Origin: Prorocentrum cordatum
Lineage: Eukaryota; Sar; Dinophyceae; Prorocentrales; Prorocentraceae
Assembly: GCA_963575745.1 (NCBI GenBank)
Contig: CAUYUJ010019862.1
Span: 97,001-161,000 of the forward strand
Direction of reading: 5' to 3'
Length of the DNA stretch: 64,000 nt
Positions 5,062-28,040 of this stretch are shown one piece after another. The notes under the pieces are model-generated. The model saw only the letters and a program-made list of their open reading frames with translations. It did no database searches and had not been told where the DNA came from. Every line of letters begins with the position of its first letter. Within the stretch, counting starts at the first letter, position 1. A program made the position numbers and the translations under genes.

Positions 5062-6141
5062 ATGATGTGCGACGGGCGGCCTCCCGTGGGCGACGGCGGC
5101 GTGCTGGCCAAGCGCCGGGCGGGCGTGCTGTGCTTCCGGGAGGTGGCCGAGCTGGATGCCGGAGCGGAGTTTTTGGTCGTGAGCCGACGCAGCCGCTCGC
5201 ATGTCGGGGACACTGGCGCGGAGCCAGGCCGCGACCGGTACACTTTGCCGGCGGGCAAATTCGAAGAAGCATTGGACTCGTCGTGCGAGGACTGCGCGCA
5301 GCGGGAGGCGCTCGAGGAAGCTGGCGTGGAGTGCCAGATAGTGGAGGATCTCGGGTGGTACGCATCGAGCAGCAAGCTTGGAGACCCCATCCAGACGAGG
5401 TATTTCCTGGGCCGCTGCGTGCGCCTGCTTGACCGCTGGCCGGAGGAAGAATCACGGGACCGGCTGTGGGTGCCACCGCTGGAGGCGCTGAGGGTGGTCA
5501 GCTACCGAGAGGACTTGGCCGCCGTTGTTCTCCGAGGGATGCAGGTCCTCGGCGCCGCCAGCCCCAGCGCGGCGGTGCCTGCTGGCCATGACACGTCGCA
5601 GCCTCCGCTAGACAGCGCGGGGGAGGTGGCCGAGGAGGCCGTCGGCGGCGAACGTTTCGTGAGCTACTCGCACCAGTGCGGCGGCCACTTCCGGCTGGTG
5701 AAGCCCGCGCCTGGAACCCGCTTGGAGGTGGAGTTGCCTTCTCGCCCACGGCGAGAGCTCGCCGACCAGCAGCAAGCGCTCGCGAGGTCGAGCGCCTGCT
5801 CTGGGGACAGCTGCTTCGTCAGTGGTAGCCGGGTGGTGCTGAAGCCGTTCGACGCCCACGAGGAGCAGTTCTATTGCCACAGCTTGCTCGACGAGCGCCT
5901 TTCGCCGCTCCTGCCCTTCGTGCCCCTCTTCTACGGCACGAAGAAGCTCAATCGGGAGCAAGTCGAGGACCTGGCCTTCAACGGGGCGGACGCCACTGAC
6001 ACGGCCCCGGGGCACAGCGCAGCGCCTGGCGTCAACGCAGCAGACCGCGAGTCGAAGTACGCTTCGCAGCGCTTGCGCCGCTACCTCGTCCTCGAGGATC
6101 TCGGCGGCAGCGCCTCGCAGCCTTGCTTCCTGGACCTCAAG
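5062..6141 (+). CDS. NUDIX hydrolase-IP6K fusion protein, exon 1 (residues 1-360)
   Basis: The first in-frame ATG is at 5062; the frame is open from a stop at 4894 but offers only a GTG before that. An AG sits directly before the ATG, a possible spliced-leader acceptor. Residues about 17-165 are a NUDIX domain of the diphosphoinositol polyphosphate phosphohydrolase kind, with the box at 65-89 (LPAGK, then REALEEAGV). The loop between the box Gly and REALEE is two residues longer than the G-x5-E-x7-RE consensus. A Ser/Pro linker follows. An inositol polyphosphate kinase domain then begins: HQCGGH at 204-209 matches the IP6K glycine-rich entry, VVLKPF (Lys261) is the ATP-binding lysine strand, EEQFY follows, and PCFLDLK at 354-360 is the start of PxxxDxKxG. 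The exon ends in phase 0 at CTCAAG|GT. Reading on would add about 106 unrelated residues, so a splice is required to complete the kinase. Confidence 0.87.
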
Positions 6142-6552
6142 GTCGAAATGGGGGACAGACAGTCAGGGAACAGACACAGTCAGCAGCAAAGACATGGTTA
6201 TTGTCCTGGCCCCCCCGGCACGTTGTCCCGCAACGGGGTGCGATTTGTAGTCCCGCCTCCTCCGCCGCATTTTGGGCATCTCTCTGTCAGAGTTCATTTG
6301 AGCATCCAGCCACCCAAACCGATCGCGGTCGAACAGTCTACAAGAAGGCCCAAACAATCGACAAAGGGTTCCCAAGAGACGCTCAGGAGATCCTTAGAGA
6401 GGCGTCCACTACTCTCCAGCTGGCCATCGCGAGGTGCCACTTTGAACACTAACACACATTAACGTGTCCGATGTTTGCTTGAACAGCTGGTATGTAAGAG
6501 TCTTGTATAACATCTTCGACTGCCCGACGTGAGGTCCCCCAGATCCGGAATC

Positions 6553-6668
6553 GGTGGCCCGTGGTCTCCAGTATGGCATTCCGTATTGTCTCCGGTATGG
6601 TCTCCCGTACGGTCTCCCGTGTAGATGGTTTGCCGAATGGTTTGTCGTATGGTCTCCTCTAATTGTCT
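6553..6668 (+). repeat. Degenerate 10-12-bp GGTCTCCNGTA repeat
   Basis: Imperfect GGTCTCC(C/G)GTAT-like units fill this stretch of the intron. From 6670 to 7060 I see no gene or repeat. Confidence 0.7.
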
Positions 6669-7070
6669 CCCTGTGGTCTTCCTTCGTCTCTTTTATGGTT
6701 CAGTTGCGTCACGTGCGTGTCGCTCTCCGAGTGCGCCAGGTACGCCAGCGCAGGTCACAGCGCACATCGGGCAATGCCCCCCACCACCCTTCTCACAAAC
6801 CAATGTCAAGCAACTGCGGGTTTGACTATCGTGTGTGCACCCGCGATTACTTTGCATTGGTTTTCGACAGGGATGTCGGGCCTGCGCACAGCGGACAAAT
6901 GACGACCCCCCCGCTGTCCTTACCCTTGGCTTGGTTCCCTCAAAAGGCAGGTGCCCAGGGCTTTCTTTTAGGATGGTAAACCTGTCCCGGGTGCCAGGTT
7001 CGAAGAGGTCCGGCGGGTTAATGTGCGATAGATATCGGGATCGAAGAGGGCCAGCGGATTAAATTTTGAA

Positions 7071-7104
7071 AATGTCCGAAGCGAAACGTTGGTTTTTGAA
7101 ATTC
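7071..7104 (+). repeat. Dispersed repeat, copy 1
   Basis: GTCCGAAGCGAAACG followed by TGGTTTTTGAAATT recurs almost unchanged at about 8290-8322. The pair is about 1.2 kb apart in the same orientation and both copies border CTTGGGGCC-type minisatellite DNA. Confidence 0.7.
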
Positions 7105-7129
7105 TTTTCGCTTCGCGGGTTGCACGTCC

Positions 7130-8045
7130 GGAAGCCTGTTTGGGGCCTTTTGGAGGCCTTTTGTGGACTTCTTGGGGCCGGTTGGGGGCTTCTTTAGGGC
7201 CTCTCGGGGGCGTCTTGGGCCGTTTTGCGGCGTTCTTGCGCCGTTCGGCGAGTTCGCCGCCTGCTGTGCCCGCACTATCGCCCGAGCCCTTGGCGACCGC
7301 ACCCACGAGAAAAACAGCATGGGAAGAGAAGACGCGCAGTCCAGTCGTTGGCTCTCTCGCCTTTCTTGTCGGAGCCCAGCACGTGCAGTAAGGATGTCGT
7401 TGTGGAGCCGTGCCGTTCGGCCCGCCCGAGAACGTGTTATCGTATACGCAGGCGTCTGCATAGTTTCTCGAAGCCTCTTGGGGGGAGGCTTCTTGGAGGA
7501 GCCTCGTGGGAGCCTCCTGGGGGCTTCTTCTGAGCCGCTTGGAAGCCTCTAGGGGGCCTCTTGGGGCTTCTTTTGGGCCTCTTTGGGGCCTGTTGGGTAC
7601 GTCTTGGGCCGTCTGGGAGCGCTCGTACGCCGCCTGGCCCCTTCAGAGGCCATCTTGGAGGCATCTCGCCGTCGCCTTGGGGCTCTCTTGGGGTCCTCTT
7701 GGGCCGTCTTGAGGGCCGTCTTGGGGGCCTCTTTTGGCCGTCTCGGACCCCTTTTGGGGCCGTGTTTGGGGGCCTTCTGGGCAATCTTGGGGCATCTTGG
7801 AGGCTGCTTGGGCCGTCACGGCCTTCGGAGAGCCGAAGAAACACGAGAACGCTAAAATCTGTCAAAAACCATAAGAAATCATCGATTTTGTCTTTTGGAA
7901 GAGTCATTGGGGGTCCTCTTGGGGCGTTCTTGGGCCGTCTTGTGGGCCGCATGGGCCCCCTTGGGGCAATTTTCGGCCGTCCTGGGGCCGTCTTGGGCCG
8001 TTTTGGGGCCATCTTGAGGCCCTCGTGGAGTCCCAGGAGGCCCCG
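7130..8045 (+). repeat. CTTGGGGCC-type minisatellite block
   Basis: Long imperfect array of GGGGCCTTTTGG / CTTGGGGCCGT units interrupted by unique sequence near 7230-7480 and 7830-7900. Its Leu/Gly/Arg-rich open frames, such as minus 7437-8126, are repeat artefacts. No coding family is recognisable. Confidence 0.75.
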
Positions 8046-8289
8046 GAGGTCGATATCATAGATGTTCCATGCGTTTTGGTATGTTTTTTCGCCCCACGGA
8101 GGGGGGGGGCAGTATGGTACGGTCATGTGTCATGTGGCGCGGCTCCAGGGGGGTAAGGGGGGGAGACATACTAATGTAACGCTATACAAGATGTACCAAT
8201 TGTGTAATAATGGACTACATTGGATACGTTGCATTATCGCCTTCGGAGAAAACGATGCCGCTCAGCACGTCACTTATGGACGTGGATTC

Positions 8290-8322
8290 CGTCCGAAGCG
8301 AAACGCTGGTTTTTTGAAATTC
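8290..8322 (+). repeat. Dispersed repeat, copy 2
   Basis: Second copy of the GTCCGAAGCGAAACG element, with one substitution and an extra T relative to 7071-7104. Confidence 0.7.
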
Positions 8323-8379
8323 GGCTGAATCCTTCGGCTTATGCCACACTGCCGACCCTTTTGGGAACGGGCTGTCGTG

Positions 8380-8830
8380 GCGTGTTGTTTGGGAGGGCCT
8401 ATTGGGCAGTTTTCGAATGTTTCTTGGTGCCCTTTTGGGCGCCGCGTAGGGGCCCACGGGGTGCCTCTTAGAGCTTCTTGGAGGCCGTCTGTGTGGCTGT
8501 GTGGGGGTTCTCTTTGTTTGTTTAGGGGCCTTCTAGGAAGCCTCTGGAGCCCTTTGGGGAGATCTTGGGAGCCTCTTGGGCCGTCGTGGAGCGTCTGGAA
8601 ACCGAAGAGGCGCGACTGCTACAGTTTTTCAAGAACGGATTGAAAATCAATGAACGATTCCTCGTGGCCGTTTTGGAAAGGCTCTTGGAGGTCTTTGGGA
8701 GCGTTTGGGGGACGTCGTGGGCCGTCTGGAGGCTACTTGGCCGTCCTGGAGGAGCCTTCGGGGATTGGGGGCTCTCTTGGACTGTCTTGGGGCCCCTTTG
8801 GGGCCCTCTGGGCTCGTTGTGGGGGCCTCT
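8380..8830 (+). repeat. CTTGGGGCC-type minisatellite block
   Basis: Further copies of the same G/T-rich degenerate unit. The stretch 8830-8995 is unremarkable. Confidence 0.7.
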
Positions 8831-8992
8831 ATCCTGCCAAGATGCGTTGGGGCCGTGCCGGTGGGATCCGGGCGGACCCCTTCCCTTCCAAATCCACCGG
8901 GCCAGGGTACGGGGTGACGGGCCGGGAGGGAAGTAAGCATCTCACACGCAGAGGACACTCCAAGGGTTCGTGGGATGTCGCCGACACGTTAA

Positions 8993-9044
8993 CATTGCAT
9001 ATATCTGTATATATACACACATATAGATATACATATGAGAGAGA
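8993..9044 (+). repeat. AT-rich TATATA/CACATA microsatellite
   Basis: A short AT-rich island in otherwise GC-rich DNA. From 9050 to 10140 I find no gene and only scattered T-rich or G-rich tracts. Confidence 0.8.
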
Positions 9045-10139
9045 AGGATGGTGGGCCTGCACACAGGAGGTAATTTGATACCCCTGCCGTCGTGTAACAG
9101 ACCAATACACAGTGAGGGTGTGACGCCCGATGATGATCCAGGCCATCTCGCAAATCGCATGCTTTTTCATAATTATCGTGATGAGGATGGTTGGGTGGGT
9201 TGTCTTTGACTCGGGTCGGCCGTCGGTCGAGTGGGCGGGTGTGTACGAATACGGAGCAGGGGTAAATAATTCCCCGAAAGGGCAGAAAATGTTTGGAAGA
9301 CAGGCTCCCCGATGTCCAGATGTATGGTGGGATGTTGGTTGCCGGCGTTGTTGTTGGTTTCGTGTAGGCCGCGAGAGGGCCTTCGTCGCAGGAGTTTAAA
9401 CTCGTTTTGAAAGCTTGGTAGGGATGACGTTCAGGAGGAGTTTGCCGGGGAGGTGGTTGAAGGGACGAAAGGCAGGCATCTCTTAAAAAACGTTTTGGAG
9501 CCGTCGGGGGTGTCTTTAAGGGAGATTTGGGCCGTGCCGTGGCCCTTTTGCACAAGCGACCGCGCGTCCGCCAAAGGTTTCCCCGGGCCCACATCAATCG
9601 CGGCACAACCCGCACGGGCAATCGTGAATTCTGCGGCTGACATTCTCAGTTGTCGTTGTGCACGCACAGGGGCACGGGCGAGAACCCATGTCTACGAACG
9701 GCGGGTATTTGTCTAAATGCCAGAAGAGTGATTGTCGAGTGGCCTTCGGCACATCCCGCCACCGTGCCTGGGCTCTGGGCCTGGGGCCATGCGGATGGCA
9801 GAAGGGGTCTCGTCGGAGGCGTCTCGTGGGCGTCCGGGAAACAGTTTTTTAATCGCTACGGGAGCCTCCTGGGGGTTTGGATTTTTTTGTTGTTGTTCGG
9901 GTCTTTCGGAATTCCTGGGGAGAGTGTCGGTGGTTTTTTGGGGCAGCCCGGGGGCGGTTTGCAGTCGAAGGCCCGACATGGTCGTTCGGGTTCCTTTGCT
10001 GAGTCCCCTCTTGGGGTTTTCTCGGGGCCCCCCTGGACCGCCTCAGGGGGTTTTCTTCAGCTGTTTGGCAGCTCGGCGCGGCAGCTTGGAACGTAAGTCA
10101 GAGACTGCGGGATCAGAAAAAGAGAGAGGGGCACGCTCA

Positions 10140-12180
10140 TATGCCCTTGTGGCTCGGCAGCGCGCCGAGCCCCCCTTTCCCTTCGAAAGAAGGGCCCCCC
10201 CCCGCCGCTTGGCTTGCTGCCCTGGCTCTAGCTGCCGCCCTGCGCTGGGGCGCGGGAGCGGCCGCCGCCGCCGGGCCGCGCCCGCCGGTGGGCCCCCGCC
10301 CCGCGGCACCAGACGCCCAGCCGCCCCCCGCCGCGCGGCGCACCGATAAGGCCGCGGCGCCCATCCTGGACGCGGTCTAGCTCCACGCCTGGGCCGAAGA
10401 AGTCACGGAGGCGAGAGATTCCATGTGCGATGACGTCGATCATATCGCCGCTGCGGGGGCTTCACGAGGCCCGACGACGCGGTCCACCTGGCGGCCACTC
10501 CCGAGGGTTTCGAGGGGCCAGCAGCTGTTGAACTCGCTCGGGGAGTCGAGTAGAGGCTGGAGTTCCCCAGGGCCGCGCCGCCCACCGTGGCGACGCCATC
10601 GTTCCAAGTGGCCGCCCAGCGGCCGCAGAGTACGAAGGAGATTGCGGATATTACCTCGAGGCAGAGCTGGGCCCTCTGCAGCTGAGCGCGGCCCAGTTCG
10701 CCAGACACCACGGTCGACATCATCGTCGAGGACGACGAGGACGACGGCAACGGCGACGTGGACGAGGAGGAGGAGGACGGCCACGAGGAGATGGGAGCGC
10801 CGGCCGCCGTTGGCCCTGGGCCCGCACCGCCGTCCCGGATGGAGGCAGCCATCGGGTCGTTGCCCGCCTGGAGACAGGCGCCCGCCCCCTCCGCGGCTTG
10901 CCCCGTCGCTGCCCAGAGCTGGCCCGCCGCGCCGCGGGCCCGCAGGGGCCGCGCCGTCGCCGCGGCAAATCCCGCGGCGGGGCTCCTCGGGGCACCCCTC
11001 CGTTTAGCTTGGGACCTCGTCTGAGCCTCCGTTCTCGTGGCCCTAGGATGTGTGCAGGTCTCGATCGGGGACCGGGGGTATCTGGATTTCGCCGTCGCAG
11101 TCGACGCCCTCGCCTCCAGCCGCGAGCGGGCAATCCTCGGGCGCCGCAGCCGCCGCCGCCGCCTGGCCCCCCCCCAGGGCCGCCCCTCCGCCGCCGCTGG
11201 AGCTGGGTCGGGCCAGGGGCTCCGCGCCCGGACGACCGCGCGAAGTGCAGCGAGGCGCGGGCCTGCGGGGCTACCAGCCACCCGCCGCATATCATCTTCG
11301 TCGCGAAGGGCCAGGCCGCGCGCGCCAGCCGAGTTTCGGGGGCGGGGGCCCCGGCACGCGCCTCAGGCCTCATCCGCGCCTGCGAGACCGCCGGGGGATC
11401 GACGTCGGGGCGCCCGCGCCGCTGCCTTGAGAAGGCGCCTGCCAATAGGCCCCACCTGCGCCGCGCGGCGCCGTGCCGAGACCTGCGAGAGTACGCGCTG
11501 CAATTCGACGCCTGCGCACCACGTGGACGCGGGCGACCGAGTCGAATTTAGCCGGTTCGCCGACGCAGGGCTTGGGCGGAGTCAGCAGCTGGGGCAGGTC
11601 GTTCGCGCCGCTTGCCGCGCGCGCGGAGCCGCCGGTCGCCGGCCGGGTCTTCGCGGCCGCCGGCGCCTAGCTGGGAGCCGCGGCTGCGCCGGGCGCCGGG
11701 CGCCCGCAGGACAACATCTGCAAGGCGGGGGCGGCCGGGGCACTAAGAGCCGAAGGAGGAGGAGAGGACTTGAAAACAAGGAAGCATCAAGGACACTGCA
11801 ACGCACACACAAGCGCCCTGAGATCCCCCCCCGCAGATCCCTACAAGCCATTATTCCCAGGCCGCACAGAACGTTCGCGCTGGCCTGCTCGAGATATCTG
11901 GCCAGGTTTGCGGCCCGCCGCTGCCGACCCCGCCCGGCCCCTCCCGGGGCCCGTCGCGCGGCTGGCGATGCGGAAGCGGACGCCCGCGCTGGGCCGCCGA
12001 GGCCCCGAGGCGCCCGCGGCGCCTCCGAGCGGCCCCCAACCCCTCGCAGCAGAGCAGGGCGAGGGGCGCGTCGCGCTGGTCGCCAGCCGCGGCGACGAGC
12101 AGGTCAACGGCGCTCTCAGAGCCGCGCCGATTACCGCGCGCCGCCAGCGGCTAGGATGGGACAGGCCCCCCGCGCTCGAC
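10140..12180 (+). other. Very GC-rich segment upstream of the LINE, unassigned
   Basis: Several frames are open in both directions because of composition. One short reading (about 10685-11024) contains a strongly acidic run, VEDDEDDGNGDVDEEEEDGH, and then an Ala/Pro-rich end. I recognise no domain. It may be the 5' part of the adjacent LINE or unrelated intron DNA. Confidence 0.3.
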
Positions 12181-12186
12181 TGAACG

Positions 12187-13234
12187 ATGGAGATGCCGCG
12201 CGAGATGGAGACCCCCGCCAGCAGCCGCCGCGCCGCGGAGGCCCGCGCCGCCGGGGCGCCGCTGCTCATCGCGCCTGCCCGCGCAGACCGCGCCCCCCAA
12301 GGCGCGGCGGCGGGCGGCCGCAGCGCGTGGCGGGCGGGGGTCAGCCCCCTGCGGGTGCACGAGAGGCTAGGCCGCCTCAAGCACGCACGATTGAGCTTCC
12401 CCGACGAGGAGGACCACGCGAGTGGAGCAGCGGCGGGCGGAGACTTCGAGGATCGGTTGGGGGCGTCGGCGCCGCGGGCCCCTTGGGCCGGAGCCGCGGC
12501 CCCGACCGGCGACGACTTGATCGACCCGCTGCGAGAACGACAGCCAGAGCCAAACGCCCTGGACCGAGAGGCCCTGCGCGCCCTCATCTCCGAGAAGGAC
12601 TTTCACATGGCGCAGCAGCGGGGCCCGGTCGCCAAGCTCACGGATGAGCTCGACGAGGCGGAAAAGGAGCATCGGCGCTTGGCGCAGTCGTTCCACGCGT
12701 CGGTCGAGCCCCCTTCCAACGAGCCAGAGGCCGGGCTTGCCGTCCCTCTTGCGTCCATTCTGGACGGTGGCTTCACGAAGGCTCTTATCATTGACCTTGC
12801 TGAGCCGTTGTGCTCTCGCGACGACTGCGAGCTCTCCGAGCCCGATAAGAGAGCTTGAGCAGCGGGGGGAACAGCTCAAGGCGGGCATCCAGCAGCTCGC
12901 CGACACTCTCTTCAGCAAGGCGGTTGAGGGGGCGGAGAAGATCAAGAAGGCCCACCGTGGTCACGTCGCTCGGCCCACCAAGAAACGCAAGGACAGCGCT
13001 GCGGCGAAGAGGCTGGCGCGCCAGAGGGCGGAGCTGCCGCTGTTGCGGCCGCTGGCGGAGGCGAAGGGGCCGGGGGGCAGGCAGAGGGCCAGCCTTCTGA
13101 GCCGGCAGGGGAATCCCGCGGCGAACCCGGCGGGGGCGGCCCCCCGGCCCCCCAGCGCCACCAGGCCCCTCTGCGCGAGCACGGACTGCCGAGATCATGC
13201 TTCAACAAATAGAGCCCCCTGCAGGAGCGACTGA
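12187..13234 (+). pseudogene. LINE ORF1-like region, frameshifted
   Basis: Two overlapping plus-strand frames carry one apparent protein. The first (12187-12858) contains a Glu/Arg-rich helical part, EALRALISEKD and ELDEAEKEHRRL, then PLASILDGGF and an acidic CELSEPDK. The second (12644-13234) continues as RELEQRGEQL, QQLADTLFSKA and a basic AKKRKD-like region. The switch falls near 12850. A coiled-coil segment followed by a Lys/Arg-rich tail suits a LINE ORF1 RNA-binding protein, and the position upstream of the RT agrees. The assignment rests on resemblance and context. Confidence 0.45.
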
Positions 13235-13616
13235 CCAGTCCCGTTGAAGTTGACCTGCAGGGGGGTAGCCATCATTCTCAGGATCCAGCTGCCACGGCTT
13301 CTCTGCGCTCTCCGAAGGCGGGGGGCCCTCATCTTGGCCGGCCAGAGCACGCCTTGAAGGAGAGTGAACTTTCTCTTGGGCGCGTGCACAGTCTGGCTCT
13401 TTTGACGCGTTTGATAATTCTTTTCAGAGGCTGTCGAGGCGCCTGCGGGGCCCCCGAGCGCCGCGGGCTCGCGGGCCCGCCTGCGGGCCGCAGCTGGTGC
13501 GGGGGCGGGGGAACGAACCGCTGTTGGGGGGCCTGCACGGGCGGGGCCTCGGCATCCCAGGGTCGCGGCGCGTTGGCCGGGAGGGGGCAGGGGCGCAGCT
13601 CGCCGAGCACCCCGCC

Positions 13617-13632
13617 CCCCCCCCCCCCCCTT
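13617..13632 (+). repeat. Poly-C tract
   Basis: Run of about 15 C between the ORF1-like region and the endonuclease-like region. Such a tract is a likely place for length errors. Confidence 0.8.
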
Positions 13633-13831
13633 CCTCGGACAGGCGCAGCCACGCGACCGCTCCATTGACATCAGATGCCCCGCGCTAGAGCTCGCCAGTG
13701 GCCCCTCGGATCAGGCCTCTCGGCCGCCCCGCTGGACCCCGCCCCGCGTCGGCCGCCGCCCGCCCCCCAAGCGTTGCAAAGCCTCGCTGCGCGGTGCGGT
13801 TAGGCACTCGCCCTGCGGGCTCGTCGATCGA

Positions 13832-14578
13832 TTGCCTGTGGGGCCGCTGGCTTTCAGAAGCCCTCGTTCAGTAGCCCTTCCGTGCCTGCCATGTTTGGAA
13901 GTTTTGCGTCTCCGAGTCCGATGCGCCATGTCTGCGTCAGTTCAGAGCCCTGCTGCCCCCTCGAGTAATTACATGTCTGGCCCAGGGGGCCCTGCCTCGA
14001 GCTACGTCGGGCCCCTTCCCACTCGGGCCCTTCCGCTGCGCATTCGGGTTCGCTCGAGCTCTGTTTTCGCGCGGTCAACTGCAACGGTCGAGCGACCACG
14101 AAGAAGCTGTTGGCCGACGCCCCCGGCCAGGGATTTCCTGGACTCTGATGGGCCCCCTGGAGGGTCGGAGGTTGAAGCTGGACGCGCGGTCTCAGGCGTC
14201 ACCAACCCCTCTCGGGGGAATCGTTTTCTCGACCATGTTGCGCATCTTCGCCGCTCGGAAGGATTATCGGAGAGAAATGTTGATCTGTTGGTTCAGGTTT
14301 GTGAAAGCTGTTCCTCTGCCTCTCTTTCCTTCTGCACTGGTGCCAATTTTATCGCGTCGCCTCGAGTTCTCGGTCAGCGTTCGTTTGCCGAGAAGCTTCT
14401 CGGCATACACATCACGCCTGATGGGAGCGCTCGCTTTGGAGAAGGACCCCCATTCGGCACTTTAGACCATTCCGTTTTTGTTGTCCCGGGGGTCTGGGGA
14501 AAGCCGTTAAATCGTGCGAAGTGTTGCCAGGCTTGCCCAGGTGATCTTGCACCCTTCTTGCTCGGCTCCAATGTTTGA
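13832..14578 (+). pseudogene. Possible LINE endonuclease (EEP-type) remnant
   Basis: A 248-codon frame sits between ORF1 and RT, where LINEs carry an apurinic-type endonuclease. Its C-terminal half has weak likenesses: CTGANFIASPRVL in the place of the GDFN-P strand, and FGTLDHSVFVVP in the place of the terminal (I/L)D-x-(F/V) strand. The catalytic Asp and His are not convincingly preserved, so it would be inactive. It may instead be random open frame. Confidence 0.3.
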
Positions 14579-14788
14579 ATTTCAGGTTGCCTTCCCACCC
14601 CCACCCTTGCGCCCGCCGCGTTCAGCCCAGCCCCCGAGCCCCCCGATTCGCCCTACCCTCGTGCATTGGCTTTGTGCGAGGGGAGGCGGCATTGTGGGGG
14701 CGGCTGTCCTTCCTGGCCCTTGCTGCGCTGCGTGGGCTGACAAGGTGAGGCGGGGCTTGCGCCGCTGCTTGGAGCCGACCCCCCAGTC

Positions 14789-16351
14789 GTGGGCGCGCGT
14801 TCCAAGATACCCCAACTGGCGTGGAAAACGCTCTTGGGCAGGGACATCCATAGTCATGATCCAGATCAGCATGCGGCGCGCTGGCATAACTCCCAAGTCC
14901 ACGCTTTGGCTGCTTTACGCGCTGCAAGCCTTAGCCGCGGAGACCTGGCTCAGAAGTTAGTTCGTTTGCTATATGCGCCACCAGCAACAGTTCAGGTGCC
15001 GGATGGACTTCGCAAACTGTTTGAAGACGTTGCTGGCCCTGCTCGCGGACATTCTGCGCCCGAGGCTCTCTGGGGCAGGCATTGCGCGACAAGTTGGATG
15101 CAGCTGCGGATCTCGCCAGCAAGGCGGATGCTCACGCGTCCCAAGAGTTGGCAGGCTTGGATTCGCGAGGGGCTTGATTGATGAGGGGGCCAAGAGGATG
15201 GATTCAGCCACTGGAGACTCGACCCCCTGGCGTCCCACCGCCACCTGAGCCGCCGACGGATCGATCGCGCCAGACCCCTCGTCTCTTCTGGCCGCTGAAG
15301 GTTTCAAATTATCTTCCTTTCAGGGCGAAGGCATTTGGGCTCTTTGTTCGTCGGGGCCGACGTCGGCGGATCCCTTGCCCCGCTTGTCGCTTGTCCGCGG
15401 AAGCCATCACGAAGGTGCCCAAGAAATGCCCCAAAAAAGATGGTTTCAATTGCCGCCACTTTCAATAGTTGTGTGACTCTGCCTTGGACACCTCAACCAT
15501 GGCGTTCGAAGTCATGGGAGCCCTCGGCGAGCTTCCCGAGCAGATCTCGGCTGTTCTTTTAGCGCTGCTGTCCATGCCGTCTGGTGGCTACAGGCCGATG
15601 GGAGTGTTCTTCGCCTGGTACAGAGTCCGGGGCAAGTGCCGTCGCCCCCCGCTCTGCTCTCGGAGACTGAGCACCCCCGTCGGTACTGGGCTGTTGGGGC
15701 GCACAGAGGAGCCTCGGATGTCGCGCGGCGGCAACGCGCCAAGGCCGAACACGGAACGGCCAAGAAGGATGTCAGTTGCAGTGCGTGTGTGTGTGTGTGT
15801 TTTTTCGGTATGCTCCCGAATTATGAAGCGATCGACCTTTTTGTCCTCGAAGGTAAATGCCACAAGCATGGGTTTCCTGTGCCCATCGCTCGCCCTTGCA
15901 GCTTTGCTTTCCGGCGTGGCCGTTTCTTGTCCTTGGGCGGCATTTCTGCGGGGCCGATTTTGTTGAGAGAGGGGTGGCTGGCTGCAGCATGGCCACCGCC
16001 CTTATCAGTGTGTTTGCGGTCGACGCTTTCGACACAATTGTGTTTTCGCTTCGCCGGAACAGTGACACTTACATGGATGATTCTGGGTTCTCGAGTATTG
16101 GGCCCAAGCAACTCGCCATTGACAGCACCGTGATTTGGACGCAAGCGCTGCGCCATGCTATCACCGAGCTGCTTGGCTGCATTGTTGCTCTTGATAATGT
16201 CTGCATGGTGGTTTCCAGCAAAGCGGTGGCGACTGAGTTGTCTGCGCAGCTTGTTGCCTTAGTTGGCAGCGTGGAGGATTCCACCGTCAACCTAGGCGGA
16301 GACTTCGCCGCTGGGAAGTCCGCCAGGATGCTGGCAGGCGCTCGAAGCTGA
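14789..16351 (+). pseudogene. LINE reverse transcriptase, broken by frameshifts
   Basis: Pieces of one RT lie in successive frames. A tryptophan-rich connector (SWQAWIREGLD, then GAKRMDSATGDSTPW) covers about 15140-15240. Fingers/palm motif PEQISAVLLALL, PSGGYRPMGVF and YRVRGKCRR lies at 15530-15640. Then come WAVGAHRGASD and a Lys-Ala-Glu segment, then YEAIDLF, HGFPVPIAR and RRGRFLSL at about 15820-15940. A third frame holds VAGCSMATALI and the catalytic box YMDD at 16070-16081, followed by LGGDFAAGKSARM, the LGVDF-like strand. At least three frame changes are needed, and a TG microsatellite interrupts the gene. Polymerase activity is lost. Confidence 0.75.
15783..15806 (+). repeat. TG microsatellite plus T run inside the RT
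   Basis: A GTGTGT tract followed by six T interrupts the RT between the WAVGAHRG and YEAIDLF segments. It is probably associated with loss of reading frame. Confidence 0.85.
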
Positions 16352-16969
16352 AGGCCAGGATCGCCCACATGTGCCGTTGTAGGAAGCGTCAGGAGGCTTC
16401 GGATCTCTGCCGCTGGGCCGTTGGTTGGAGGGTCCTATGGGGCCGGAATCCTGGGCGCCTCCGGTCATGATTCATTCCAGATGCGCTGAGACGTTTTTTC
16501 GCAGGTTCGTCCTGTCGCTCCGTCTCTGAGTTTAATTGCCTGCTGCATTTTATATTTAGCCCCCACTGGGGGGCGGCCACCGCCCCGATCATGAGGCGGG
16601 GCAGTGCAGTTTGGTTGGCACAGACTGGCCAATTTCACGGCTCTCTCACCCACGGGGCCCTTCGCCAGGCTTGGCCCGCGGTGTGGGATCCGCCTCGTTT
16701 TATTTGGGTTTTTGTTGCTGGCCCTTTGTCTGCTCTGCGTCTTACTTTCGTCGGGCTGGGTTGGCATATGCTACGAAATCCCCCCGTGCGTTACCTCTCC
16801 CGAGTTGTTGGCTATCCATTGCCGCAGGGCACCGCGACGACAAGTGGCGCCGGGAGGGGAGTTTGTGTTTGGGCGTGGTTAGGGGAGCCCTTAAAAAAAA
16901 GAATCGCCCCTGGAGAAAGGGGGCGATTAGGGCTTTAGCCTGCAGCGCGTTTTGGACCCCTAACAGAGC

Positions 16970-17795
16970 CATGCAGCGCGCGCACCAGCTTGACCCTAGG
17001 CGTATTCATCGTGGCCTTCCTGATTATCTTCGCCATCGGCTGTGGGATTGCAATCGCGTTGGTGAGCTTCGGGCTCAGTGGGCCGACGCCTGGGTGATTG
17101 CTGCAGCTTTGGACGCTGAGGCCGATGGGTACTCGCTCGTCCTTTTCTGTCATGGAGCTATCGGTCATCCCGCCGATGACCTGCCTCGTCCGTGCTTGGA
17201 AGGCACGGTCCAATATGCGTGGCATAGGGAAGTCCTGGAAGGTCCTGGAGGCCCTGAAGTTCCTCAAGGCGGGGTTCTTTGGGGCCATTTGTTCCTCGAT
17301 GGTTCCTGCCGGCGACGCGTCGTCAGGGAACTCGGCAGGTCTGTTTGGGCTGCCACTATGCATGACGACTCGGGAGATGCTTTAGGGGGAGAGCGAGGGC
17401 TTGCGCGGGCCCAGCATCCGCGGACCCCCCAAGCGGGTGAATGTTTAGCGAGGGGCATGGCTGGACTTTTAGCCAAGTACCCCTTCGGTCCTCTATATGT
17501 TGCCAAGCATTCCAAGCTCCCCTTTCCTGAGCGCCTCTCGGGCAAGACAGCCCACAGTGGACTCATCATGGAAGCGAACGCTCGCGAAGCCAATGTTATT
17601 TCTGACGCGGTCAAAGCTGCTGCCCACAATGACCTTCACTGGGAATGCGTTGACGAGCAGAAACGGTTCGATATTAAGTGTAACGATGATGCCGAGATTG
17701 CGGCGAAGCATGCTATTCACTTGCGTCCCGCAGACGTTGCGCTGTTGGGCGAGGTTGACGGGCTCGCAACGATTTCCCGCATGGCGCCATGCTAG
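16970..17795 (+). pseudogene. LINE RNase H domain
   Basis: A single open frame carries RNase H landmarks in order: GHLFLDGSC (first catalytic Asp), ELGRSVWAATM, HPRTPQAGE (second acidic site), ANVISDAVKAA (third) and DDAEIAAKHAI with LRP (the final Asp and its helix). It follows the RT pieces and precedes the zinc tail, the order found in RNase H-bearing LINEs. This domain is in better shape than the RT, but because the element is frameshifted on both sides it cannot be made as part of an intact polyprotein. Confidence 0.7.
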
Positions 17796-17796
17796 C

Positions 17797-18243
17797 GGCC
17801 AAACTGTTGCTAGAATGGCCTCGCTTGGAGCTCTCTCTCGCCCCGAAGGTTTCTACTGTTGTGCCGTCGCTTTCCTTTGGCAACCATCACGACTGGCAAG
17901 TTTCGTCAGGCTTGTGGAGGTGCAGGGAGTATGTTTGGTAGGTTGTCGGCAGCAGGAGGAGCCCGCGCCAGGCCGCCGAGCAGGGAAAAGCAAGCTTGAC
18001 GTGGAGGTGCTGTGTGAGCTGGGCCACAAAGTCATTGCATTTCCCCGCGGTGATGGGAGTCATGTTTTTGTTTGCACCAAGTGCAGTTTTCACAGCAATG
18101 GTGCGCGCATTGACGGGCTGGGCAGGAGATGCGATGGACATCCCACCAGGAACGTTGAACAACATTGGCGCTACCTGTATATAGGGATGCACCCGAAACC
18201 CCCGCAGGCGCCACGTGTCGGTGGACGTTGGCGCTGTCTATGA
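17797..18243 (+). pseudogene. LINE C-terminal Cys/His-rich tail
   Basis: In another frame from the RNase H, the sequence reads LGHKVIAFPRGDGSHVF, then VCTKCSFHSNGARIDGL and RRCDGHP. These give a CxxC pair, a later Cys and His residues, followed by YIGMHPK. This matches the short zinc-binding tail that ends many dinoflagellate LINE proteins. The minus-strand element at 23.3-23.7 kb has the equivalent CNACGSFAAEQL. Confidence 0.6.
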
Positions 18244-18659
18244 GCTTTTTGGCCATCGGCACGTCGTGGCTCAGCCTGCCGTCTCACGTTCGACCAGTGC
18301 TGGCTCGTCGAGGCAGCCTGCTAGTGTCACTGGAGCCCGTCGTGGGGAGGACGATTCGAGGCCCCATTGCCAGCAGAGGCGACAGTGATGACTCGGACTG
18401 AGTTTTTCATTGTCTTGGTCTGTGTCCTTCAGTTGCTAATCGCGCCTGCTGTGTGTCTCAAGTATCTGACTTCAGCCTGCTTCGTTCAGTAGCGAATCTC
18501 GCTTGCTGGTTGTCACAGGTCTCTGGCAGCTGTGCACCCCTCCCGGGGCCAGCTGACACCTGTGGTGAAGCGGCGCCGTCGCCGCTTTGCCCAGTTCGTT
18601 TTGCGCCCCTTCTTGGGCGCAGCTTGCAGTGGTTCCAGCCGCCGCTCCTTGCACTGTTT

Positions 18660-18960
18660 CGTTCTCTGTGGAGTGTGGAGCTCCAACAAAAAAACGAAAG
18701 GCACCCACGTGTTTTCGCGTTTGTTCCGCTCTGGGGCGAAAGGGACCCATGTGTTTTCCTTCTTTTTCCAGTTTGGGGCGAGTTTGTTCTGCTCTGGGGC
18801 GCAAGGAGCCCATGTGTTTTCACGCTTGGTGCGTTCTGGCACGAGAGGGGCCCACGTTGCGCCCACCCAAAACGCGACAGGTGCTAGGATTCCGAGCCTC
18901 TGAACCTTCTCCCTCGTGTTCCGCCCCCTCCCGAACGCGACACTTGCTCGGATTATACGC
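18660..18960 (+). repeat. Diverged tandem repeat (CCCAYGTGTTTTC units)
   Basis: Three or four diverged units share CTCTGGGGCGNAAGG, CCCA(C/T)GTGTTTTC and a CGCTTGGT-like spacer. A related AACGCGACA/CTCGGATT pair follows. No gene is seen between 18270 and 19660. Confidence 0.6.
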
Positions 18961-19087
18961 CTCTGGATATCCTCCGGCGTGTTGCCACCCTCCCCCCCCG
19001 TCAGAGCGCAACAGTCGCGAGGAGTCAGAGTTTTTGTGCCTCCATCCGCGAGTTCCGCCCCTTCCACAGTTTCCCCTGGGGTTCTAA

Positions 19088-19350
19088 CATGGTGGTCCCG
19101 GGCTGAAGCCATGTGTTGTCACGTGTCCAGGCCACACAGGTGGATATCTGGCATGATGGTCTCGAGCTGGAGCCACGTGTTTTCACGTGTCCAGGTCGTC
19201 ACCCAGGGCGGTATCTAATATGATTGTGCCGAGCTGGAGCCACGCATGTTCACGTGTGCGTGTCCAGGCCGCCCAGGGGGATGACCTAACATTGTTGTCC
19301 CAAGCTGGAACCACGTCTTCAGCGTCCAGGCTACGCAGGGAGAGATCCAA
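19088..19350 (+). repeat. 64-71-bp tandem repeat, four units
   Basis: Each unit reads GTCCCGAGCTGGAGCCACGT, then TTCACGTGTCCAGG, then a CACCCAGGGNG-like box and ATCTAACA. Four diverged copies stand in a row 310 bp before the splice acceptor. Confidence 0.8.
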
Positions 19351-19660
19351 CATGTGGTCGTCTGGCTCTATGTCTAGGTGTCTCGAGTGAGGGCTGCGGA
19401 ACTGAATCGGATCTTGAGCTCGCTCGAGCTGGTCAAGCGCTCCGTGCGTTTCGATTGCAACTAGCCCGAGCTATGCGTTCAGGCAGCTTGAGTTTAAGAT
19501 CCAAATCAGTTCGGTCACAGCCCTTGGCAGAATACCATCATCATTGATATCTTCAGCATCGCCACTACCCGTCGGCCAATTGAGGTGCTTGGGTGCGTTC
19601 CCATGCCTCGCAGTTCTAAATCCCTTTTCGGGTTCGTGGGTCGGTCATGCTCCCTAAAAG

Positions 19661-20530
19661 GTGGGTTGCCGTCAACGCTCTGCGCGCCACAACACGCAGA
19701 AGCGGACGCACATGGCCGCGAAGGCCGCGCAGTCCACGTCTGCGATCCTGGGCTTCCGGGTCTGCGGCATGCAGGGGTTCGACCGCGTGACGGGCCAGGT
19801 GAAGCGCCACGACAAATATTGGGGCCAGAGGGTGACAGTAGAGTCCATGAGTAGGACATTAGCCATGTTCTTCAGCCTGGGGCTGGACCGCCCGCACGGT
19901 TCGCTTGCAGGCGTCAGCGCCACTCTGGTGGAGGTTGTCGTCAAGAAGCTCGAGAGGCTAGAGTCTTTGCTGAAGCAGCTGTCTGGAATGCGCTTTTGGG
20001 GGAGCTCAGTGCTCATCTTCTTCGACGCCGGGGTCGTTGATGAGGACAGCAGAGAGAGCTGCCTAAGGTCTGTGCAAGTGAAGATCATCGATTTCGCCAA
20101 TTTCCAGGACGTAGGCGGCGAGCTGCCAGACCAGGAGTACCTGTGCGGTATCTCCAACCTGCGGATGTTTCTAGAGGCGCTGCTGCGGAACCCTTCCCTG
20201 GACGGTCCGCCTGCTAGCAGCCTGGTGCCGCCGCCGCCGTCGGAAGTTCAGGACCTTGAGCAGGAGCGTGCGCGGCAACGCCTGAAGCAAGTGAAGTCCG
20301 CTCCCGCCCAGGAGGGCTCCACGATCGGGACGGGCACGGACGACGAGACCAACCTCGCGGCCAACGCCCAGACAATCTCCGGGGCCACTGGGCGCACGCT
20401 CCTGCGGGAGATTGCACCCCGCCACTTGTTGAGGCCAGACGGTGGCTCCAACTCGGGTGCGAATAGCCGTTCGGGGACCCACCGTCAGAGCGGCGGCAGC
20501 TTGGACGGCCTCTTCGAGTCGTTCGAGTGA
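19661..20530 (+). CDS. NUDIX hydrolase-IP6K fusion protein, exon 2 (residues 361-649)
   Basis: Begins at the AG acceptor with GTGGGT (Val-Gly), finishing PxxxDxKxG, and ends at TGA 20528-20530. It holds the C-terminal half of an IP6K: AAQSTSA and LGFRVCGMQ at about 380-398 match the human IP6K stretch that follows DLKMG; HDKYWGQ follows; FWGSSVLIFFD (Ser465-Ser466) is the SSLL strand; KIIDFAN (Asp494) is the metal-binding IDF motif; and DQEYLCGISNL (Asp507-Leu517) is the DxGYxxGLxxL helix. All hallmark catalytic elements are therefore present across the two exons. The last 120 residues are Pro/Ser/Gly/Gln-rich and probably disordered. The expected reaction is phosphorylation of InsP6 or InsP7 to a pyrophosphate by ATP, opposed by the N-terminal NUDIX domain. 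Substrate preference cannot be read from sequence. Confidence 0.88.
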   Translation: MGCRQRSARHNTQKRTHMAAKAAQSTSAILGFRVCGMQGFDRVTGQVKRHDKYWGQRVTVESMSRTLAMFFSLGLDRPHGSLAGVSATLVEVVVKKLERLESLLKQLSGMRFWGSSVLIFFDAGVVDEDSRESCLRSVQVKIIDFANFQDVGGELPDQEYLCGISNLRMFLEALLRNPSLDGPPASSLVPPPPSEVQDLEQERARQRLKQVKSAPAQEGSTIGTGTDDETNLAANAQTISGATGRTLLREIAPRHLLRPDGGSNSGANSRSGTHRQSGGSLDGLFESFE

Positions 20531-25674: not shown

Positions 25675-26140
25675 TCATGCATGCTCCAGTCTGGCGCGCA
25701 GCATCGCGTAGACAAGGCCTGAAACACAACGCTGCCACATTGAATTCAGGAGATCGCAACGAAACGCCGCGGCACTGGAATGATAAAATGTCTTGTGCAC
25801 AACAAGCTGTCTTGCTGTCTTGACGCGCGACACACTTTCCTCACCCGTAACTTATGTGAGCCCCCGACGCTACATATGAGATGCCATAGCACAAGACTTC
25901 CTGTTTGCATCGCTTGACCGAAGTATGCGACATCACTTTCGGTACCCATCAAAACCAGCACGAAACTCCTGTGTTATAGGGTTCGTGGATTTGATATCCA
26001 GGGCGAGCGGACTTGCGAACCGCACGAAGTACTTACGAAGTCGGCCATACGTTGCTGAGCTGAGTCATGTCTATCTCACTTGTGAATTACTTTGTGTGTC
26101 CAACAACCACGTATTGACTAGTTATCTAACTCAGCAAACC
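25675..26140 (+). other. Lower-GC spacer without a gene
   Basis: Base composition is more balanced than its surroundings. I see no domain-bearing frame and no tRNA fold. Confidence 0.5.
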
Positions 26141-26141
26141 A

Positions 26142-26232
26142 GTTAGTCACTGGCTTGCTAAGTACTTCGTAGGCGACTTAGCTAAGTAGGCGACAGCCGA
26201 CTTAGATAAGTACTTAGTTAAACATGATGATA
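26142..26232 (+). repeat. Degenerate ACTTAG/TAAGTAC repeat
   Basis: Overlapping GCTAAGTACTT / GACTTAGCTAAGTA units form short imperfect palindromes. Confidence 0.7.
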
Positions 26233-26261
26233 AGTAGTTCGTAGAAGGAGCGCGTTCTGTG

Positions 26262-26520
26262 GTCGCTTGGAAGGGGCGCGGGTGACACCGGACCCCCCCC
26301 CCCGCCCCATCCCCTTCCTCCCCTCCCCCTCTTCCCCTACTTCTCCTCTCTCCCTCTCCTCGGGCCGGCGCCTGCGTCGGCGGCGGCTGGCGGCGGCGGC
26401 AGGGAACGAAGACTTCCTTTTCTGGATCGGCACCGGCGCCTGCGGCGGCGGGCGGCGGCGGCGGAGAGCGTCGACGAGGACGACGGCGACGACGATGACG
26501 ACGACGACGCTCCACCACCG
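26262..26520 (+). repeat. Pyrimidine-rich then GGC/GAC-rich low-complexity DNA
   Basis: A CCCCTCCCC tract is followed by GGCGGC and GACGAC triplets. Simple sequence, no gene. Confidence 0.75.
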
Positions 26521-26647
26521 TGCCTTGGTTCTGGGCCAGAGTCCTACTTGATGCCTCTTGGGGTCTCGTCGGAGGGCTCTCGGGGGCCTCTGAAAGGCAT
26601 TTGTGCAGACTCCTGGGCCCCTCTTGGGCGCCTCTTGGAGCCTCTCT

Positions 26648-27800
26648 GAGGTGGTGGTGGCGGTGGGTTGTGGTGGTTGTGGCGGTGGTGGTGGTGGTGG
26701 TTGGTGTTGGTGGTGGTGGTGTTTGTGGTGGCAGGTGGATGTGGTCGCGGTGGTGGTGCTGCGGTGGTTTTTGGTAGTGGTGGTGGTGGTAGTGGTGGTG
26801 GTGGTGGTGGGTTGAGATGGTGGTGGTGGTGGGGGCGGTGGTGTTGTGGTGGTTTGGCGTAGTGGTTGTGGTGGTGGTATTGATGGTGGTGGTGGTGGTG
26901 GTGGGTCGTGGTGGTCGTGGTGGTGGCGGTGGTGGTGGTGGTAGTGGTGGTGGTGGTGGTGGTTTGTTGTGGTGGTGGTTGTGGTGGTTGGTGGTGGTGG
27001 TGGGTATGTGGTGGTTTGCGGTGGTGCTTGTAGTGGTGGTTGTGGCGGTGCTGGTGGTTGTGGTGGTGGCGTGGCGGTTTGTTGTGGTGGTGGTGGTTGT
27101 GGTGTTGGCTGTGGTGGTGGTGGTCGTGGTGGTGGTGGTTTGGTGGTGGTGTGGTGGTCGTTTGTGGTGGTGGTGGTCGTTTGTGGTGGTGGTGGTTGTG
27201 GTGTGGTTGTTTGTAATGGTGGTGGTGATGGTGGTTTGGTTAAGACGGCGGTAGTTTGTGGAGGTGGTGCTGCGGTGGTGGTGGTGGATGTTTTGGTGGT
27301 GGTGGTGTGGTGGTTTGTGGTGGTGGTGGTTTGTGCTGCTGGTAGCGGTGTTGGTTGTGGCGGTGGTACTGGTGGTGGGTTTTTGTAGCGATGGTGGTGG
27401 TAAGGTGTGGAGGTCGTGGTGGTTGTGGTGGTGGTGGCTGTGGTGGTGGTGGTGGTTGTGTGGTGGGTTGGTGGTGGTGGTGGTGGTGGTTTGTGGCGGT
27501 GGTGGTAGTGGTGGTGGCGGTGGTGGTGGTGGTGGCGTGGTGGTGATGGTGGTGGTGGTGCGGTGTGGTGTTGGTGGTGGTGGCGCTGCTGCTGGTAGCG
27601 GCGCTGGTGGTGGTGGTGGGTGGTGGGTGGTGGGTGGTGGTGGTGGTGGTGCGTGTGGTGGTGATGGTGATGTTGTGGTTTGTGGTGGTGGTGGGTTGTG
27701 GTGATGGTTGTGTTTGTGGCGGTGGTGGTGATGGTGTTGGTAATGGTGTGGTGGTTTGTGGTGCTGGTGCTGGTGCTGGTGGTTGTGTTGAGTTGTGGTG
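26648..27800 (+). repeat. 1.15-kb (GGT)n microsatellite
   Basis: Imperfect GGT/GGTTGT triplets run for more than a kilobase. The plus strand reads Val/Gly/Trp and the minus strand reads Thr/His/Pro for over 500 codons. Composition alone keeps these frames open. Confidence 0.95.
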
Positions 27801-27822
27801 GTGCTGGACGGCGCGGGGTCCT

Positions 27823-27995
27823 ACGGGAAGGGCGGAACGCACTGCGTGCGAGCGGGGGCGGGGGCAAGCCCAGCGGCGGCAAGCCCAGCGGCAAGGGCGG
27901 CGGGGGCAGCGCCGGGAAGAGCGAGGCGGGCGGCAAGGGCGGCGCCGTGGCGGCGCCGGAGCCGACGCACGCCGAGGCTGGCGACGACGACGACT

Positions 27996-28040
<45 letters not shown>

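Follow-up and report, generated by a model that had tools for sequence, protein, structure and literature searches.

A dinoflagellate gene joining a NUDIX domain to an IPK-family kinase, a candidate inositol-pyrophosphate kinase/pyrophosphatase

Can a single dinoflagellate gene encode both a domain that would make inositol pyrophosphates (PP-InsPs) and one that would remove them? The question is raised by a locus of Prorocentrum cordatum in which a NUDIX domain and a kinase share an open frame. The locus lies in a stretch of 64,000 nucleotides of contig CAUYUJ010019862.1 (contig bases 97001-161000, here called the window, to whose numbering all gene coordinates refer) within a 4.13-Gb assembly of 21,875 contigs. 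A preliminary description of this DNA had proposed that the two domains form one protein. We find it near certain that the fusion is real and that dinoflagellates share it. The best explanation of the gene, and a reasonably probable one judging from its sequence, is that it encodes an inositol-pyrophosphate kinase/pyrophosphatase whose origin is independent of PPIP5K.

The gene is predicted to consist of two exons on the forward strand. Exon 1 (5062..6141) is an open frame of 360 codons that carries the NUDIX domain, a linker and the kinase N-lobe through PCFLDLK; its start ATG at 5062 is followed by a second ATG at 5065, and the frame contains no ATG between the upstream stop and 5062. Exon 2 (19661..20530; 289 codons plus the stop codon at 20528-20530) supplies the kinase C-lobe, beginning VGCRQRS, and a C-terminal tail, and the joined exons predict a product of 649 aa. 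The sole intron (6142..19660; 13,519 bp, GT...AG, phase 0) has the donor CAAG/GTCGAA at 6141/6142 and the acceptor TAAAAG/GTGGGT at 19660/19661, and it interrupts the catalytic PxxxDxKxG motif after the Lys instead of falling between the domains. As the NUDIX domain and the kinase N-lobe sit in the same exon, the fusion is independent of the splice model. The motifs quoted in the preliminary description were all found in frame, with REALEEAGV, HQCGGH, VVLKPF and PCFLDLK in exon 1 and VG, LGFRVCGMQ, SSVL, IDFAN and DQEYLCG in exon 2. The Prorocentrum cordatum genome has been reported to comprise 4.15 Gb in 22,724 scaffolds, with a GC content of 59.7% and a mean intron of 4,709 bp (PMC10666404).

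GC content by codon position is strongly biased in both exons (0.72/0.49/0.84 in exon 1 and 0.63/0.48/0.80 in exon 2), and this bias has no counterpart in the two 870-base intron stretches measured, where GC is 0.53-0.63 at all codon positions; the exon frames are therefore not due to chance. Third-position GC is 0.836 over exon 1 (0.82 in its NUDIX part, 0.85 in its kinase part) and 0.80 in exon 2, and 0.53 and 0.57 in the two intron stretches in the same reading. Within exon 1, the codon-position GC pattern is the same on the NUDIX side as on the kinase side.

Both domains were matched by Pfam above the curated cut-offs, NUDIX (PF00293) in exon 1 with 35.9 bits (E 9e-9; cut-off 21.1) and IPK (PF03770) in exon 2 with 113.1 bits (E 1.9e-32; cut-off 22.2), using queries that overran the exons by 21 intron bases (6142-6162) after exon 1 and by 3 (19658-19660) before exon 2. 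The kinase part of exon 1 alone (5560-6162) gave no Pfam match, yet homologues align throughout it. Three protein searches, each scoring only the ~8,000 candidates that shared most words, retrieved 31 proteins, comprising 27 dinoflagellate-type and four outgroup (P0028-P0031) proteins. With P0022 set aside as exon 2 of the window itself, 26 independent dinoflagellate-type homologues remain, of which 15 have both parts on one open reading frame (ORF), nine the kinase side only and two the NUDIX side only. The dinoflagellate-type label of these 26 records rests on similarity, and the four that carry an organism name are all from dinoflagellates; two-part status was taken from precomputed Pfam results for 14 records and from alignment for P0003. 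Homologue P0001 (642 aa) is 85% identical over 98% of exon 1 and crosses the exon junction with no residues gained or lost. The junction peptide PCFLDLKVGC is exact in eight of the 15 two-part homologues and substituted in the other seven, and because eight independent homologues have it, the 649-aa fusion is no artefact. Records that are transcriptomic by name (P0009 and P0012, Trinity; P0015, MMETSP, Kryptoperidinium foliaceum) hold both parts on one ORF, as does a genome record, P0014, from Polarella glacialis. The Pfam matches and the homologues joining both parts thus bear out the single polypeptide of the preliminary description.

Named homologues place the fusion in two orders, Suessiales (Polarella glacialis) and Peridiniales (Kryptoperidinium foliaceum), and the fusion occurs in three once the window itself (Prorocentrum) is counted; the records of Alexandrium catenella and Protoceratium reticulatum (Gonyaulacales) are kinase-side only. 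No two-part record named for an organism other than a dinoflagellate was among the matches listed, which is not proof of absence because the searches required shared 5-residue words. Nine stretches of viral contigs matched a pattern and none encoded a relative, and protein searches of the Prorocentrum genome itself, in which the best 69 of 69 and 135 of 210 candidates were scored, recovered no second copy of exon 1 or exon 2. Trees of the NUDIX and kinase parts both group the window protein with P0001 and P0003, and P0013 with P0014. We rejected this congruence as proof of common descent, as nine of the 12 inner branches of the NUDIX tree are open.

The kinase N-lobe (5671..6141) contains HQCGGH at 5671, LKPF with its Lys codon at 5842, and PxxxDxK at 6121-6141. 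Exon 2 adds the aligned GSSVL motif (20000..20014), which we take to be an SSLL-type motif, and IDFAN (20087..20101), which has the Mg-binding Asp of the IPK [V/I]DF motif. Motifs reported for the IPK family are D[I/V]K[I/L]G and [V/I]DF (PMC10897400); the window has DLKVG and IDF, with Leu and Val where the published brackets give Ile/Val and Ile/Leu. Judged by Pfam, profile and fold, the kinase belongs to the IPK family without doubt, and this part of the earlier assignment stands. Its other part, IP6K rather than IPMK, was not established, because solved IPMKs outscore the solved IP6K.

Sequence comparison nevertheless leads us to favour IP6K over IPMK. Beyond the dinoflagellate-type set, the kinase profile scored highest (119 bits) against P0028, whose source name is inositol-hexakisphosphate kinase; next came two unnamed proteins that we took as fungal IPMKs (89 bits each) and a cotton protein named as an IPMK (79). 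C-lobe scores were 125 bits for P0028 and 82-88 for the IPMK rows. The fusions that reach the region share [HN]Q.GGH with P0028, where P0031 (named IPMK) has HQVAGH, and KxGx[RK]Q is common to the fusions and P0028. Several observations weigh against an IP6K: EhIP6KA reached just 69 bits in the C-lobe comparison; among solved structures the kinase profile scored human IPMK (64.8 bits) and yeast Ipk2 (61.6) above EhIP6KA (55.3); a structural comparison also ranked human IPMK above EhIP6KA; and a C-lobe subfamily tree, with long branches and unsettled bootstrap values, did not place the kinase. Together with TSxxLGFRICGM, which is common to yeast Ipk2 and the fusions, these points would suit an IPMK-type multikinase (InsP4/InsP5/InsP6) paired with a DIPP, in which early synthesis would be linked to pyrophosphate removal and the two sites would not act on the same bond. 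We regard this alternative as unlikely, given the lead of P0028 in both the profile and the C-lobe scores and the [HN]Q.GGH motif that it shares with the fusions. Rank among solved structures was dropped as a subfamily test; it does not discriminate because P0028, though named as an IP6K, shows the same bias (human IPMK 64.6, EhIP6KA 60.5 bits).

The second half of an IP6K/DIPP pairing is the NUDIX domain (5107..5541; aa 16-160), for which Pfam, a profile match to DIPP1 and Foldseek agree. A profile built from 11 NUDIX segments and run against PDB sequences found human DIPP1 first (E 9e-11). DIPP1, 2, 3 or DDP1 was the label of 15 of the 16 best sequences, which amount to four proteins since 11 of them are DIPP1 variants, and the remaining sequence, 2duk, is labelled MS0616. 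Human DIPPs scored 38-45 bits and DDP1 32.0; the first other family was represented by 8zjb, an oomycete Nudix protein whose title mentions decapping, at 31.8 bits and thus level with DDP1, and the next by an Ap4A hydrolase at 25.8. With the window segment alone, DDP1 ranked first (E 0.00037), 8zjb second (0.0014) and DIPP1 third (0.0045). The alignment with DIPP1 extends from K.RA..LCFR near the start of the domain to W...R.R.W near its end. The predicted structure of aa 1-166 (mean pLDDT 88.8) had DDP1 as its best match in Foldseek, though in a second structural comparison MutT1 tied. On this evidence the domain is very likely DIPP-like, in agreement with the relatives that the preliminary description had proposed for it.

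The Nudix box consensus is GX5EX7REUXEEXGU. In the window protein the box, GKFEEALDSSCEDCAQREALEEAGV (5254..5328), has a loop two residues longer than this, and PAGKF stands in place of PGGGM in DIPP1 and PKGGV in DDP1. The longer loop prompted us to consider a CoA or ADP-ribose pyrophosphatase, an identity we rejected because NCBIfam scores were far under their cut-offs and DIPPs came first by profile. Across the conservation set (n = 15; the window protein plus all two-part homologues but the truncated P0002, 14 in number), RExxEE is complete in 14 of 15 sequences and the first Glu of the box is not conserved. R19 aligns with human DIPP1 Arg20, which is presumably the counterpart of DDP1 R32, so that R19 probably is as well; the DDP1 alignment itself stops short of R19. 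R32 has been described as a third residue important for DDP1, next to E80 and E83, and activity is very low in the mutants E80Q and E83A (PMC8064635). E82 and E85 of the window protein align with E80 and E83, and the position of DDP1 Lys63 is Ala, a Lys also reported to be missing from human DIPPs (PMC8064635). The exception in RExxEE is P0003, a 629-aa fusion homologue with a broken Nudix box (PAARF...REALEGAG) in which the third catalytic Glu is replaced by Gly; it is possibly a dead-NUDIX paralogue or an assembly error.

DIPP-like ancestry leaves room for other substrates, and the domain could act on Ap4A, Ap5A or Ap6A, polyphosphate, mRNA caps or nucleotides, in which case the protein may couple the making of the messenger to the turnover of nucleotides or polyphosphate. 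Near neighbours by structure or sequence include MutT1, the Ap6A hydrolase Ndx1, Ap4A hydrolases and the decapping-type 8zjb, and DDP1 is reported to accept diphosphoinositides, dinucleotides and polyphosphates (PMC8064635). Human DIPPs lead the profile over the best other family, however, and attachment to an inositol phosphate kinase would argue for a common substrate; we therefore hold this alternative to be distinctly improbable.

Conservation bears on whether both sites work. Mean pairwise identity is 52.5% in the NUDIX domain, 43.8% in the kinase N-lobe and 52.2% in the C-lobe, and 23.7% in the linker (5542..5670; aa 161-203), where the P0001 model has low pLDDT. The count covered 15 active-site or motif positions, 12 of which are invariant across all 15 sequences. 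In the NUDIX domain, R81, E82, E85, R132, R134 and W136 are kept in all 15, E86 and G65 in 14 (again excepting P0003) and R19 in 13 (one gap, one Gln); in the kinase, K261, S476, the Asp and Lys of DxK (D358, K360) and the Asp of IDF (D504) are kept in all 15. Equal constraint on two domains that flank a free linker is the pattern expected from two working active sites. Instead of hydrolysing inositol pyrophosphates, the NUDIX domain might bind them as a non-catalytic sensor and so regulate the kinase, as the altered Nudix loop and the Glu lost in P0003 would allow, but each of the three Glu of RExxEE is retained by 14 or 15 of the 15 sequences at ~50% mean identity, and we consider a sensor very improbable. 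We reject as practically negligible the reading of the locus as a mis-assembly or as two adjacent genes taken for one, despite the long intron and the 11 of 26 independent records with one side only, because a single exon holds the NUDIX domain and kinase N-lobe, both parts are found together in 15 independent records, and introns of the Prorocentrum cordatum genome average 4,709 bp.

The C-terminal tail contains NAQTISGATGRTLLREIA (20363..20416), conserved in many fusions by alignment, and identity over aa 601-625 is 49.9% in the 55 of 105 pairs that are comparable. The 61-aa tail had no second match in the Prorocentrum genome.

The nearest functional likeness is to PPIP5K (Vip1/Asp1/VIH), described as bifunctional for inositol pyrophosphates with kinase and phosphatase domains on one chain. 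The PPIP5K kinase is an ATP-grasp enzyme (PMC10897400) and its C-terminal phosphatase belongs to the histidine acid phosphatase family (PMC11836120, PMC10653929). In contrast, the protein described here has an IPK-fold kinase and an N-terminal NUDIX phosphatase candidate, its Pfam and fold matches being IPK and NUDIX instead of the two PPIP5K folds, and no homology is implied. DIPP, DDP1 and Aps1 are the closest solved NUDIX relatives by sequence, and the Glu needed by DDP1 are kept; solved DIPP chains, however, are 136-194 aa long and lack a kinase, which the fusion carries. With IP6K and IPMK the fusion kinase shares PxxxDxKxG, SS[VL]L and IDF, to which the fusion adds the NUDIX domain and the conserved tail, and the stretch from HQ.GGH to LKP is longer in the fusion than in P0028. 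An HDAC2-IPMK fusion has been reported in Plasmodium (PMC12694804), so IPK-family kinases do get fused in alveolates. That protein likewise joins an alveolate IPK-family kinase to another enzyme, but its partner is a histone deacetylase and hence does not oppose the kinase.

Taken together, these comparisons suggest how an inositol-pyrophosphate kinase/pyrophosphatase of this design may work. The C-terminal kinase, most likely of IP6K type, would add a beta-phosphate to InsP6 (or InsP5), and the N-terminal DIPP-type NUDIX domain would take that phosphate off. With both on one chain, net gain or loss of PP-InsP could be set by ATP, phosphate, Mg or a partner, a logic like that of PPIP5K built from two unrelated catalytic folds, and the product may feed phosphate sensing by SPX domains. 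We infer the substrates, the activity of both sites, their reciprocal control and the SPX link; the regulated switch is suggested by the design and by analogy with PPIP5K. More tentatively, and with somewhat less than even confidence, the protein may be a dinoflagellate-own 5-InsP7 switch, in which an IP6K makes and a DIPP removes the same phosphate, retained from before Prorocentrales, Suessiales and Peridiniales diverged and convergent with PPIP5K at the 1-position.

If both activities are true, this would be a second, independent instance of the PPIP5K design, the purpose of tethering opposed activities would become testable by comparison, and there would be a defined way into the phosphate sensing of bloom-forming algae. 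The preliminary description knew of no enzyme with this pairing, and we likewise found no description of a NUDIX-IP6K or NUDIX-IPMK protein by titles and abstract starts among the matches listed from the open-licence literature, which leaves most subscription papers and all preprints outside. The main text of a eukaryote-wide survey of inositol phosphate kinases (PMC8024741) uses none of the words dinoflagellate, NUDIX or fusion. SPX domains are reported to be inositol pyrophosphate receptors in phosphate homeostasis (PMC6731061), and SPX proteins, some varying with phosphate supply, have been reported from dinoflagellates in a paper that does not mention IP6K in its main text (PMC12388464). 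No account of dinoflagellate enzymes that make and break the inositol pyrophosphate signal was found in the open-licence literature.

The genome probably encodes some of the pathway surrounding the messenger, since it holds a DIPP-like fragment, PF03162 frames and an SPX-type ORF. The fragment, a separate NUDIX piece at L028 (G000:C5936:151896-152063), reads KGGWENDETAEACAQREALEEAGVEG and is DIPP-like by eye; when frames from the 30 other NUDIX loci fetched were compared with the fusion NUDIX profile, it scored best. Two frames match PF03162, the family holding PFA-DSPs, one of them with an internal stop. An ORF at L042 (G000:C16297:169861-169989) contains MKFGKELERLALPKWKNDYIQYKELKKAIK and has an SPX-type N-terminus (59 of 281,952 candidates scored). 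IPK-family frames gave nine matches in the genome, the window's included, and the NUDIX profile had no match in the eight other loci fetched, one of which was partly masked. PPIP5K was sought by PF18086, which had no match in this genome but none in the control genomes either; three PF00328 matches are not PPIP5K-like by eye, and PPIP5K presence or absence is not shown by them.

Elsewhere in the window, a further Pfam scan of 20 of the 139 frames of at least 180 aa, four of them wholly intronic, gave nothing above the curated cut-off. The dinoflagellate spliced leader had no match in the window at up to 4 mismatches, and its last 12 bases none at up to 1. Inside the intron, positions 10001-14000 form a GC-rich block (0.73 and 0.71 in 2-kb windows) with long open frames overlapping on both strands; the two frames scanned there (10406-11362, reverse strand; 13418-14575, forward strand) had no Pfam match. 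Positions 26001-28000 show extreme strand asymmetry, with a GC skew of 0.50 and an AT skew of -0.52.

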